A DNA stretch of 55,320 nucleotides from Hydrogenimonas thermophila (GTDB lineage: Bacteria; Campylobacterota; Campylobacteria; Campylobacterales; Hydrogenimonadaceae), in contig NZ_FOXB01000012.1 of NCBI RefSeq assembly GCF_900115615.1, forward strand, positions 1 to 55,320, given 5' to 3'. The position numbers and the translations under genes are program-made. Below, piece by piece: positions 4,459 through 8,682 of this stretch. Each line of letters starts with the position of its first letter. The stretch's first letter is position 1. The notes beneath the pieces were generated by a model, which saw only the letters and a list, made by a program, of their open reading frames with translations, was not told where the DNA came from and ran no database searches.

Positions 4459-4881
4459 TTAACAAGTTTCCTTATGCTTAATATAGTCTTTTAAAATCTG
4501 TTTATGATCAAAAACAAGTTTGTCCCAGGGAATATCAGAGAGATGATATAGAGTTGCAGTTTTTGCATCATCACCGCCAATAGGAACTCCTACAGCTTTG
4601 CTTACATAAACAATAGATACTGTATGAAATCGCTTATCACGTTTTGGATCTGAATAGACTCCAAGCAAATACTTAAGTTCTATATTTAATCCTGTTTCTT
4701 CTTTCATCTCTCTAATACAGGCGTTTTCAACTGTCTCTCCAACATCTACAAAACCACCGGGTAGGGCAACTCCTAAAGGTGGATTTTTTCTTTCAATAAG
4801 AACAATACCTTTAAACTCTCCTTTATCATTGAAACACTCTATGATACTGTCAGTTGCAAGAAACGGTGTTTTGATAGACAT
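4459..4881 (-). CDS. Nudix hydrolase, ADP-ribose pyrophosphatase type
   Basis: A 140-residue Nudix-fold hydrolase. The complete Nudix box runs from Gly43 to Leu65 (G-x5-E-x7-REMKEETGL), with the metal-binding glutamates present. Length and the PGGFVDVGE lead-in resemble ADP-ribose or nucleoside-diphosphate sugar pyrophosphatases, but the substrate cannot be read from the sequence. It lies directly upstream of murA on the same strand, two bases apart, so the two are likely one operon. Confidence 0.85.
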
Positions 4882-4966
4882 AAAAAATACCTTCTTCTAA
4901 ATTTGTTGATTTTACCATAAAAAGGCGTTAAAATAGGGTGATATTTTTTAATATGGAGTAAAATAT

Positions 4967-5486: not shown

Positions 5487-5876
5487 ATGACATCTGAAGA
5501 AATAAGTAATGCAGTACATATTTTTCCAACGAAAGATATGCTAGAAAGCGGCATTATGAAAATTATAGATATACGTACAGAAAAAGAGTGGCGACAAACT
5601 GGAGTAGTACCAGGATCTAAGTGCATAACTTTCTTTGACAATGTAGGACAATACGATATAGATAAATTTTTAGAAGAGTACCATAAAATCGCAGATAAAG
5701 ATACACTAGTTGGTTTAATTTGCCGTACAGGAAGCCGTACGAGAATGGTTACAAACTTTCTACGTCAACAAGGATACAATGTTGTAAATCTTGATGGTGG
5801 AGTTTATCATTTAAATCGCATAGGAGTTGAGTTGGTTCCGTACAAACAAACTGTCTATTGCAATAGCGAAAATTAA
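5487..5876 (+). CDS. Single-domain rhodanese-like protein
   Basis: A 129-residue rhodanese-domain protein, probably a cytoplasmic sulfurtransferase handling persulfide sulfur. The catalytic loop CRTGSRT starts with Cys79, and the flanking elements IDIRTEKEW (27-35) and LDGGVYHL (102-109) are those of the family. No signal peptide is visible. A small hairpin, TTGCGA/TCGCAA around a run of A, lies just upstream and ends next to the AAAGG ribosome binding site, so it could affect translation. The natural acceptor is unknown. Confidence 0.88.
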   Translation: MTSEEISNAVHIFPTKDMLESGIMKIIDIRTEKEWRQTGVVPGSKCITFFDNVGQYDIDKFLEEYHKIADKDTLVGLICRTGSRTRMVTNFLRQQGYNVVNLDGGVYHLNRIGVELVPYKQTVYCNSEN

Positions 5877-5906
5877 TGGAATAGTGAGTATAATACATTA
5901 TAAAAT

Positions 5907-5938
5907 AAAGTTTGAAAATTATAGTTTTCAATACTTTT
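5907..5938. other. Candidate dif (difH-like) recombination site
   Basis: Two arms in inverted orientation, AAAGTTTGAAAA (5907-5918) and TTTTCAATACTTT (5925-5937), flank a 6-base centre, TTATAG. The GAAAA-N6-TTTTC core and the position just upstream of xerH are what is described for the single-recombinase Xer systems of Campylobacterota. The right arm also pairs with 5945-5960 as part of a terminator-like hairpin, so the site may have two roles. The assignment is inference from shape and position. Confidence 0.5.
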
Positions 5939-5980
5939 ATTAAAAAAGTATTGGAAACTAGAGTTTTTATAGTTTTTTTT
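5923..5980 (+). terminator. Terminator-like hairpin after the rhodanese gene
   Basis: GTTTTCAATACTTTT (5924-5938) pairs with the segment ending AAAGTATTGGAAAC (to 5959) around a short AT loop, with one G-T pair. It is followed by GTTTTTATAG and then a run of eight T. The stem is AT-rich but about 15 bp long. It would separate the rhodanese transcript from xerH and overlaps the candidate dif site. Confidence 0.5.
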
Positions 5981-5996
5981 ATAAGGAAATATCTAT

Positions 5997-7067
5997 ATGA
6001 AATATCCATTGGATTTTGAAAACAGTTTCAATAAAACACTTCTTTTTTGGATAACACGCTATATGCACTCCAAACTTAACTCATTATCTAACCGTCAAGT
6101 AAAAGATCCTCAAGCACTTGCACGCATTATCTCAAATCTTCGTACCGGTGTAGATAGCATCGAGACTCTGTCACGTTTAGCAAAAGAGGCCAGAAATGCT
6201 GGATTAATTGGAATCAATACATACTATAAACCTCTTGAGAAGCTATATTATTATTTAGAAGAGATGGGTCCTGCATCTATGAAAGAGATTGATGAAGAGT
6301 TAATTAGTGATTTTCTTGCCTCAGCTACAGCAAGGCTTTCAGATGCAACAAAAAAGAATTATAGAATCTCTATGATTAACTTTTTTGGCTATATAGACAA
6401 ACAAAACAGTGATGAAGATGGAAGAACCCATCGTTATGGAATTGAACTTAAAAACTGGGGCGGATTGTCTGGAAAAAGTGGTACAAAACTACCCTCTTTT
6501 ATGCAGGAAGATGAAGTTGAGAGATTTTTAGAAGCTATTGAAACATACCCATTTCAAAGCAGCGTGGCTGCCAGAAACAGGCTTTTAATAAAGCTAATTC
6601 TATTTACAGGTATCCGTGTTGGAGAAGCTTTGCAACTTAAAACCAAAGATTTAATTGCCGAGGGAGATATCTATCTCATCCGTATTACAGGAAAAGGAAA
6701 TAAAGCTCGAGTAGTAATGATAAAGGCATCTCATATTAATAAATATCTAACAGAGTGGATGCAAATTTGCAGATGTGAAAGTGACTGGCTCTTTTGCAAC
6801 AAAAAAGGAACCCCCCTAACCCAAGCCTATGTAAGCCGTATAGTTGAAAAGATACTAATGAAAGCTGGTATTCGTAAAGAGAAGAATGGCGCACATATGC
6901 TTCGGCATACATTTGCAACCATGCTCTACCTTAAAAAGAAAGATTTAGTACTGGTTCAAGAAGCTTTAGGGCATGCAAGTTTAGATACATCACGCATATA
7001 TACCCATTTTGACAAAGATAGGCTTAAAGAGGCTGCAAGCGTGATGGATGATATTGCTAAAGGTTGA
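5997..7067 (+). CDS. xerH: Tyrosine recombinase XerH
   Basis: A 356-residue site-specific recombinase, expected to resolve chromosome dimers at dif. The N-terminal SAM-like DNA-binding domain covers about 35-150; the catalytic domain about 165-350. The catalytic set is complete: Arg207 (TGIRVGEAL), Lys233/236 (GKGNKAR), His300 and Arg303 (HMLRHTF), His326 (LGHASL) and nucleophile Tyr335. The length matches XerH of Helicobacter and Campylobacter better than XerC/XerD (about 300). The start follows AAGGAA. A dif-like site lies 60-90 bases upstream. It is followed by rnz with almost no gap. Confidence 0.88.
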   Translation: MKYPLDFENSFNKTLLFWITRYMHSKLNSLSNRQVKDPQALARIISNLRTGVDSIETLSRLAKEARNAGLIGINTYYKPLEKLYYYLEEMGPASMKEIDEELISDFLASATARLSDATKKNYRISMINFFGYIDKQNSDEDGRTHRYGIELKNWGGLSGKSGTKLPSFMQEDEVERFLEAIETYPFQSSVAARNRLLIKLILFTGIRVGEALQLKTKDLIAEGDIYLIRITGKGNKARVVMIKASHINKYLTEWMQICRCESDWLFCNKKGTPLTQAYVSRIVEKILMKAGIRKEKNGAHMLRHTFATMLYLKKKDLVLVQEALGHASLDTSRIYTHFDKDRLKEAASVMDDIAKG

Positions 7068-8033: not shown

Positions 8034-8050
8034 ACCAAATTTGGTACAAT
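8034..8050 (+). promoter_or_regulatory. Palindromic operator and -10 box of the toxin-antitoxin operon
   Basis: ACCAAATTTGGT (8034-8045) is a perfect 12-base palindrome. It runs straight into TACAAT (8045-8050), a fair -10 box about 20 bases before the antitoxin start. Antitoxins of this family normally repress their own operon by binding such palindromes, so I read this as the operator. No convincing -35 box was found. Confidence 0.6.
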
Positions 8051-8070
8051 GTTATAAAAAGGATATTCAC

Positions 8071-8343
8071 ATGCAACTTAGTGAAACTATAAAACCTATC
8101 AGTTATTTAAAATCAAAAACAGCAGAAATTATAAATAGTGTAAATGAAAATAGGCAAGCTATTATCATAACTCAAAATGGTGAAGCAAAAGCTATTATTC
8201 AAGATATAAAAAGTTATGAAAACTTGAGAAATTCCTTATCATTATTAAAATTGATAGTTCAAAGTGAAGAAGATATACGAAATGATAATGTAATCTCTCA
8301 AGATGAAATGTTTGAAAATTTAGAAAAAAAACTTTTTGGATAA
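8071..8343 (+). CDS. Antitoxin, Phd/YefM family
   Basis: A 90-residue antitoxin. The N-terminal Phd/YefM-type DNA-binding fold is visible in ISYLKSKTAEIINSVNE and in IIITQNGEAKAIIQDIKSYE (about 10-55). The charged C-terminal tail is typical of the toxin-neutralising segment. I start at ATG 8071, with AAGG 8 bases upstream; the longer frame from TTG 8041 would cover the operator. The toxin follows after 3 bases. The gene lies inside the unit bracketed by the rnz-end repeat, a sign of recent acquisition. Confidence 0.87.
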   Translation: MQLSETIKPISYLKSKTAEIINSVNENRQAIIITQNGEAKAIIQDIKSYENLRNSLSLLKLIVQSEEDIRNDNVISQDEMFENLEKKLFG

Positions 8344-8346
8344 CAA

Positions 8347-8682
8347 TTGAAAAATTTTGAAGTTATATGGACAAAAAATGCAGAATTTGATTTAGAATCT
8401 ATTATAGAGTATATCAAAACCGATAGCATTAAAATAGCTAAAGATATTTTTTTTGATATTAAAAATCAATGCAATCAATTATCAACTTTTCCTACCAGTA
8501 GAAGAATTGTTCCTGAACTTCAACAAATAGGGATTTTGAGGTACAGAGAACTCATATTTAAAAGATGGAGAATTATTTACAAGATTGAAAAAGAGAAAGT
8601 TTTTATTTTAATAGTTGTTGATTCAAGTAGAGATATCGAAGATATTCTTTTTCAACGGTTGTTAAAAGATGACAACAAATAG
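8347..8682 (+). CDS. Toxin, RelE/ParE family
   Basis: A 111-residue toxin of the RelE/ParE superfamily. The pattern VIWTKNAEFDLESIIEYIK at the N-terminus and the late YRELIFKRWRIIYKIEKEKVFILIVVDSSRD are typical of the ParE/RelE fold. Whether it cleaves mRNA on the ribosome or poisons gyrase cannot be read from this sequence. It starts with TTG at 8347, immediately after the antitoxin stop. The antitoxin should be unstable and the toxin stable, as in the family. The repeat copy starts 6 bases after the stop codon. Confidence 0.87.
   Translation: MKNFEVIWTKNAEFDLESIIEYIKTDSIKIAKDIFFDIKNQCNQLSTFPTSRRIVPELQQIGILRYRELIFKRWRIIYKIEKEKVFILIVVDSSRDIEDILFQRLLKDDNK

Follow-up and report, generated by a model that had tools for sequence, protein, structure and literature searches.

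A difH site beside xerH in Hydrogenimonas thermophila and a probable inverted copy of it before the recombinase gene

Introduction

The window analysed here, 55,320 nucleotides long, is the whole of contig C12 (NZ_FOXB01000012.1) in the draft genome of Hydrogenimonas thermophila (2.44 Mb in 92 contigs). Near its left end, an inverted repeat (site 1) lies directly upstream of xerH, the gene of a single-recombinase Xer protein, and a weaker repeat (site 2) stands between the two. The locus raises the question of whether the first repeat is dif, in which case it would mark the terminus region of the chromosome, and of what the second repeat is. Our search found no literature on xerH in Hydrogenimonas. 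The features discussed below are as follows.

5487..5876, plus strand: upstream gene with a rhodanese domain (PF00581), co-directional with xerH, ending 30 nt before site 1
5890..5992, no strand: imperfect inverted repeat as a whole, with arms at 5890-5938 and 5944-5992 that are 80% complementary
5907..5937, minus strand: site 1, assigned to difH, with 29 nt in common with Nitratiruptor difH and 28/28 to the consensus
5922..5960, plus strand: stem-loop between the left arms of the two sites, 17 pairs, 5-nt loop
5945..5977, plus strand: site 2, very probably a decayed inverted difH copy, 28-mer at 5948-5975 (22/28), 33-nt identity in G015
5968..5973, plus strand: TATAGT, a possible -10 element of the xerH promoter, picked out by eye
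5997..7067, plus strand: xerH, single-recombinase Xer, 356 aa (PDB 5jjv, E 2.1e-108; PF18644, PF00589)

Results and discussion

The xerH product carries both of the domains listed and is a full-length relative of Helicobacter pylori XerH (residues 1-351 of the comparison with PDB 5jjv); it passes no NCBIfam cut-off. Some XerH match was present in 35 of the 40 genomes searched, our own included. Among the genus relatives, 15 of 17 matched at E 1e-151 or better and two (G001 and G014) had no match, while 6 of 22 genomes from other families had matches that cover most of the protein at 55-67% identity, with weaker or no matches in the rest. The same query found no record at 60% identity in plasmids and phages, where the matches listed reached at most 38%. 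Further to the right in the window (8041-8682), two short genes after rnz resemble by eye a RelB/RelE-type toxin-antitoxin pair. Scanning the window at Rfam gathering thresholds gave 0 matches.

Identity of site 1

On the plus strand, site 1 reads AAAGTTTGAAAA-TTATAG-TTTTCAATACTTT (5907-5937); its minus-strand reading is AAAGTATTGAAAACTATAATTTTCAAACTTT, with a 28-mer core at 5907-5934 and the centre CTATAA. Two inverted arms, TGAAAA/TTTTCA, enclose a 6-bp centre. The site is intergenic, between the rhodanese gene and xerH, and has 4 G/C in the 28-mer; the 86-aa antisense frame that overlaps it is a mechanical ORF. It has 29 consecutive nt in common with the Nitratiruptor difH as tabulated by Carnoy and Roten 2009 (PMC2731167) and Debowski 2012 (PMC3325230), and it agrees with the published 24-species difH consensus. 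When the window was scanned with the difH 28-mer, sites 1 and 2 were the top two matches (28/28 and 22/28) and the next reached 20/28. A scoring matrix derived from 69 difH sites, which include site 1 and its counterparts, gave 43.5 bits for site 1, 13.4 for site 2 and -2.0 for the next best. In the whole genome, the 26-mer of site 1 had one match at up to 3 mismatches. The first-pass annotation had described a Xer-type arm-spacer-arm repeat upstream of xerH and suggested that it may be dif, unless a better match existed elsewhere at the skew switch; our results bear out the layout, the published difH sequences support the identification, and the genome holds no other match with 3 or fewer mismatches.

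The conservation that the annotation had asked for in close relatives was also found, with difH (26-mer, up to 3 mismatches) in 16 of the 18 Hydrogenimonas genus genomes. The two genomes without a match were G006 (82% complete) and G014 (76% complete); searching for the right arm of difH found none in G006 and two 3-mismatch matches in G014. A second match occurred in 2 of the 16, exact and on a 3.5-kb contig in G017, and with 3 mismatches in G016. More broadly, we examined 87 xerH loci (80 from the genome collection and 7 from whole genomes), and a recognisable difH lay within 700 bp upstream of xerH in 69 of them; the 18 without include some in which the contig ends, and the regular expression used fixes TG[AG]AAA and TTT[TC]C, so that other variants count as misses.

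Three observations on the relatives may be recorded here. In G006, which lacks a canonical difH, two odd dif-like stretches lie directly before xerH (L040, about 390-460), one of them with the difH left arm and centre and a foreign right arm; the contig starts 487 bp upstream, and the stretches are possibly an element junction. In G001, listed as 99% complete and without an XerH match, difH sits right at a contig end (L131, C5:7995-8020), which is perhaps only an assembly break. The G+C content is spread widely for one genus, at ~29-40% in 2-kb windows of our sequence and 52-58% in xerH of G003, G004, G008, G009 and G016.

Chromosomal position of difH

As our own genome is in 92 contigs, the position of the terminus was read from relatives. 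In four of them, difH lies nearly opposite dnaA: measured along the shorter arc and divided by the length of the main contig, the distance was 0.471 (G002), 0.460 (G008), 0.448 (G016) and 0.444 (G003, which has three contigs), with dnaA located by a domain match. GC skew was then sampled in G002 and G008, each at 20 stretches of 20 kb. For a fixed dnaA position, the change point that fitted best lay in both genomes between the two samples on either side of difH, and the skew had the sign opposite to its arm in 1 of 20 samples in G002 and 2 of 20 in G008. An octamer that has been proposed as the KOPS of H. pylori, AGTAGGGG, also changed its orientation around the site: within 300 kb of difH, the counts of its two orientations were 13 and 4 on one flank, against 4 and 16 on the opposite flank (G002 and G008 pooled and counted by hand, a bias to which GC skew itself contributes). 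This octamer was rarer than its reversed control (17+18 vs 44+56 in G002, 34+31 vs 132+118 in G008). In the window, the skew starts out positive on the left and is for the most part negative beyond 8 kb, reversing several times on the way; with only 5.9 kb left of the site, this proves little. The proposal that the site marks the terminus region thus agrees with its placement in four relatives and with the skew switch in the two sampled.

Given the sequence identity, the single match in the genome, the conservation, the position opposite dnaA, the skew switch, the change in octamer orientation and the adjoining XerH gene, site 1 is almost certainly difH, the site of chromosome-dimer resolution. 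If the process known from H. pylori applies, the arms of site 1 would be bound by two XerH subunits, FtsK would control the synapsis of two difH sites, and chromosome dimers would be separated by strand exchange within the 6-bp centre. The identification as difH rests on sequence, position and conservation, and activity of XerH on the site is to be expected from the published H. pylori work. A difH beside xerH is known biology and ordinary in Campylobacterota; what we add is that this known module is confirmed in a draft Hydrogenimonas genome and that dif, and hence the terminus region, is placed there.

One could argue that site 1 serves only to regulate xerH and is not dif, since it sits in the presumed leader of xerH and has a centre that looks, by eye, like a -10 element. 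Published difH sites with the same centre are nevertheless 36-215 kb from xerH in four Campylobacter species, and difH sits at the skew switch in the two relatives sampled, so that a purely regulatory site has next to no chance of being the right answer. Those four species also weaken a separate idea that we considered, namely that the difH centre is kept as the promoter of xerH.

Site 2, an inverted copy between difH and xerH

The second, weaker copy that the annotation had placed at 5946-5972 was confirmed at 5945-5977. A match of 22/28 on either strand was reached by a 100-nt stretch in 0.03% of 20,000 trials against a first-order random background modelled on this gap. When each of the 69 loci was searched, with its own difH masked, for a second match to that difH within 120 bp of it, the best values were 22/28 here (G000) and 21/28 in the relative G015; Helicobacter turcicus reached 20/28 (85 bp upstream, AT-rich) and the other 66 loci 14 to 18. 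No counterpart of site 2 was found near difH and xerH in the other 67 of the 69 loci, and searching the 18 genus genomes with the site 2 pattern found it in 2.

These two genomes, G000 and G015, are sisters in the XerH tree (support 95/90). Site 2 is identical between them at 33 of 33 nt, although the DNA of their xerH genes is down to 77.5% identity and both substitutions and gaps occur elsewhere in the stretch before xerH. At 77.5% per base, and with independence assumed, 33 of 33 would occur by chance with a probability of about 0.0002. Site 2 appears to be kept by selection, and very probably it is both derived from difH and under constraint. Most simply, it would have arisen once, as an inverted difH copy in the ancestor of this species and G015. 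The two parts taken together, a difH at site 1 and a constrained, difH-derived copy at site 2, are a reading that we hold with high confidence. Site 2 and the hairpin described below are a real, lineage-specific extra and not part of dif.

Arm types and binding of XerH

According to the published analysis of H. pylori XerH (PMC5241119), base recognition by the enzyme concerns the 5 bp nearest the centre in either arm, and cleavage is lost or strongly lowered when these are altered. The inner arms of the 69 loci fell into two types, GAAAA/TTTTC (49) and GGAAA/TTTCC (20), with no mixed site among them though the search expression allowed such sites. Residues 65, 74 and 75 of XerH (window numbering) separate the two types without overlap. 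The GGAAA/TTTCC type forms one clade in a quick tree, so that it should be counted as one event, a specificity switch, and not as twenty. The comparison points to two kinds of arm specificity in XerH, told apart by these three residues; the protein encoded here belongs to the GAAAA type. The inner arms of site 2 are GGAAA and TTTTT, no matched pair. Each arm departs from difH at bases that XerH contacts, so that site 2 probably does not work as a dif.

Alternatively, site 2 may be a second, weak XerH operator, such that XerH at both sites would repress its own promoter (with TATAGT at 5968-5973 as the -10 element). This would be consistent with conservation over the whole dif-like length, the right part included, with difH being in or near the xerH leader, and with the suggestion, in a study on H. 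pylori, that the amount of XerH is tightly controlled (PMC3325230). Yet the left arm of site 2 is of the type paired with XerH proteins that have other residues at 65, 74 and 75, and the right arm suits neither type; we regard an operator as rather unlikely.

The hairpin and a possible leader function

Sites 1 and 2 lie within the imperfect inverted repeat at 5890-5992, which has arms of 49 nt each with 5 nt between them. The annotation had noted a long, terminator-like hairpin formed by parts of the two repeats. The hairpin is there, as a 17-pair stem at 5922-5960 with 3 G-C pairs, and the label of terminator is weak: the T-run begins 3 nt after the stem, and 20 kb of sequence contained 14 terminator-like sites vs 10.6 (sd 3.0) in shuffles, barely above chance. 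Among those 14 stems, the one at 5922-5960 is the longest. RNA fold z-scores were -6.82, -6.88 and -6.28 for three stretches of the window and -5.18 for G015. The base pair that closes the loop is C-G in G015 and U-A here, the only compensating pair and one that comes from two sequences. Folding of the sense strand was better than that of the antisense strand by 9.4 kcal/mol, which 6.75% of 400 random decayed copies also reach.

In both species that have site 2, the gene preceding difH is directed toward xerH (the rhodanese gene here, a 447-aa frame in G015). Ten genus relatives lack site 2 and have enough sequence upstream to be compared; nine of these have a divergent neighbour, which looks like a TetR regulator as read from the protein start, and G005 has a co-directional rhodanese gene. 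The upstream gene is therefore co-directional in 2/2 genomes with site 2 vs 1/10 without (overlapping frames, e.g. one of 92 aa in G002 and one of 143 aa antisense in G005, are disregarded in these counts). In loci L010-L024, several GAAC-N4-GTTC-like palindromes were seen by eye between the divergent TetR-looking gene and difH; such palindromes are present in many Hydrogenimonas relatives.

In view of the fold z-scores, the pair exchange in G015, the stability of the sense strand and the co-directional upstream gene, we tentatively favour a function of site 2 as a leader hairpin that affects transcription of xerH. Site 2 and the left arm of difH would fold in the presumed leader RNA of xerH, and the hairpin would either insulate xerH from the co-directional upstream gene or attenuate it. 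Against this role, G005 has a co-directional upstream gene and no site 2, and the conserved right part of site 2 exceeds what a hairpin needs. The constrained inverted copy offers a testable case of a dif site reused to control the gene of its own recombinase.

Phage contigs with difH

Xer-using mobile elements are another possible source of a second site. In six of the 96 viral loci fetched, there are sites that match one of two difH types at 26/28 or better. Sites resembling the GG-type difH occur in three contigs that look like those of tailed phages (L139:14215-14242, L224:105-132 and L215:10179-10206), near terminase or between modules; terminase profiles in L139 and L215 and a family A DNA polymerase in L224 account for this look, and L224 and L139 share sequence around the site. 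No XerH was seen among the ORFs listed for these contigs (size limits 100-130 aa, contigs incomplete), which are candidate phages exploiting the XerH of their host. Searching 298 genomes of the order with the L139 terminase (E up to 1e-60) gave 2 matches of 43-44% identity, whose 4.2-kb loci contain no difH and thus give no support for integration at dif there.

In L140 (813-10522), inovirus genes (Zot, secretin and a rolling-circle Rep) stand directly ahead of difH and xerH, and in L225 a similar gene precedes difH (220-247). The gene adjoining difH in L140 is winged-helix-like and encodes 193 aa; it has homologues in 4 of the 298 genomes of the order (L285-L289) and no match in the phage collection, and all five copies (5/5) have a difH within 100 nt, at four distinct sites. 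A 9.8-kb isolate-derived viral contig (L226:402-9400) has halves with the same proteins in opposite directions and a central difH (4876-4903), and is either an inverted duplication or an assembly artefact. We infer that phages may integrate through XerH. Some phage contigs of Campylobacterota thus contain difH or border on it, and with them the range of Xer-exploiting elements would include a single-recombinase system. Our searches found no literature on inoviruses with XerH, and none on phages at difH as judged by titles and abstract openings; for Arcobacter thereius, one study reports a difH and no prophage (PMC5495459).

Could site 2 be the relic, an attachment-site scar, of such an XerH-using element at difH, perhaps with a CTXphi-like inverted pair? 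Besides the phage contigs with difH-type sites, of which L215 shares the first 19 nt of its site with site 2, and the inovirus genes beside difH in L140, the described attP of CTXphi provides a model, in that its two inverted dif-like sites pair within one strand (PMC4246890). The inverted pair is present at our locus, but the four neighbouring proteins scanned gave no phage profile, simple insertion yields direct and not inverted repeats, and a plain scar would not remain identical over 33 nt, so that a relic seems distinctly unlikely. Still more speculative, and very improbable in our judgement, would be a combination of both ideas, with difH and site 2 as the domesticated fold-back attachment site of an XerH-using inovirus that was once integrated at difH in the manner of CTXphi and is kept as a hairpin switch coupling xerH expression to the state of dif.

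Comparison with known systems

With the attP of CTXphi (inverted attP1/attP2), our locus shares two inverted dif-like sites that can pair within one strand; the phage differs in its XerCD host, a 90-bp spacer and its phage genes. The difSL/XerS system of streptococci and lactococci is similar in that a single recombinase gene is linked to the site, and differs in its 11-bp centre and, as stated in the papers that describe it, in an unrelated recombinase lineage (PMC5357621). The closest agreement is with difH/XerH of other Campylobacterota (H. pylori, C. jejuni, Nitratiruptor), which have the same arms, 6-bp centre and low G+C, the same intergenic placement near the terminus and a single 356-aa recombinase gene adjoining, and our results support the overall interpretation of the first-pass annotation. 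Unlike in those systems, a decayed second copy lies inverted between difH and xerH here (2/69 loci), an unusual addition to an otherwise known module.
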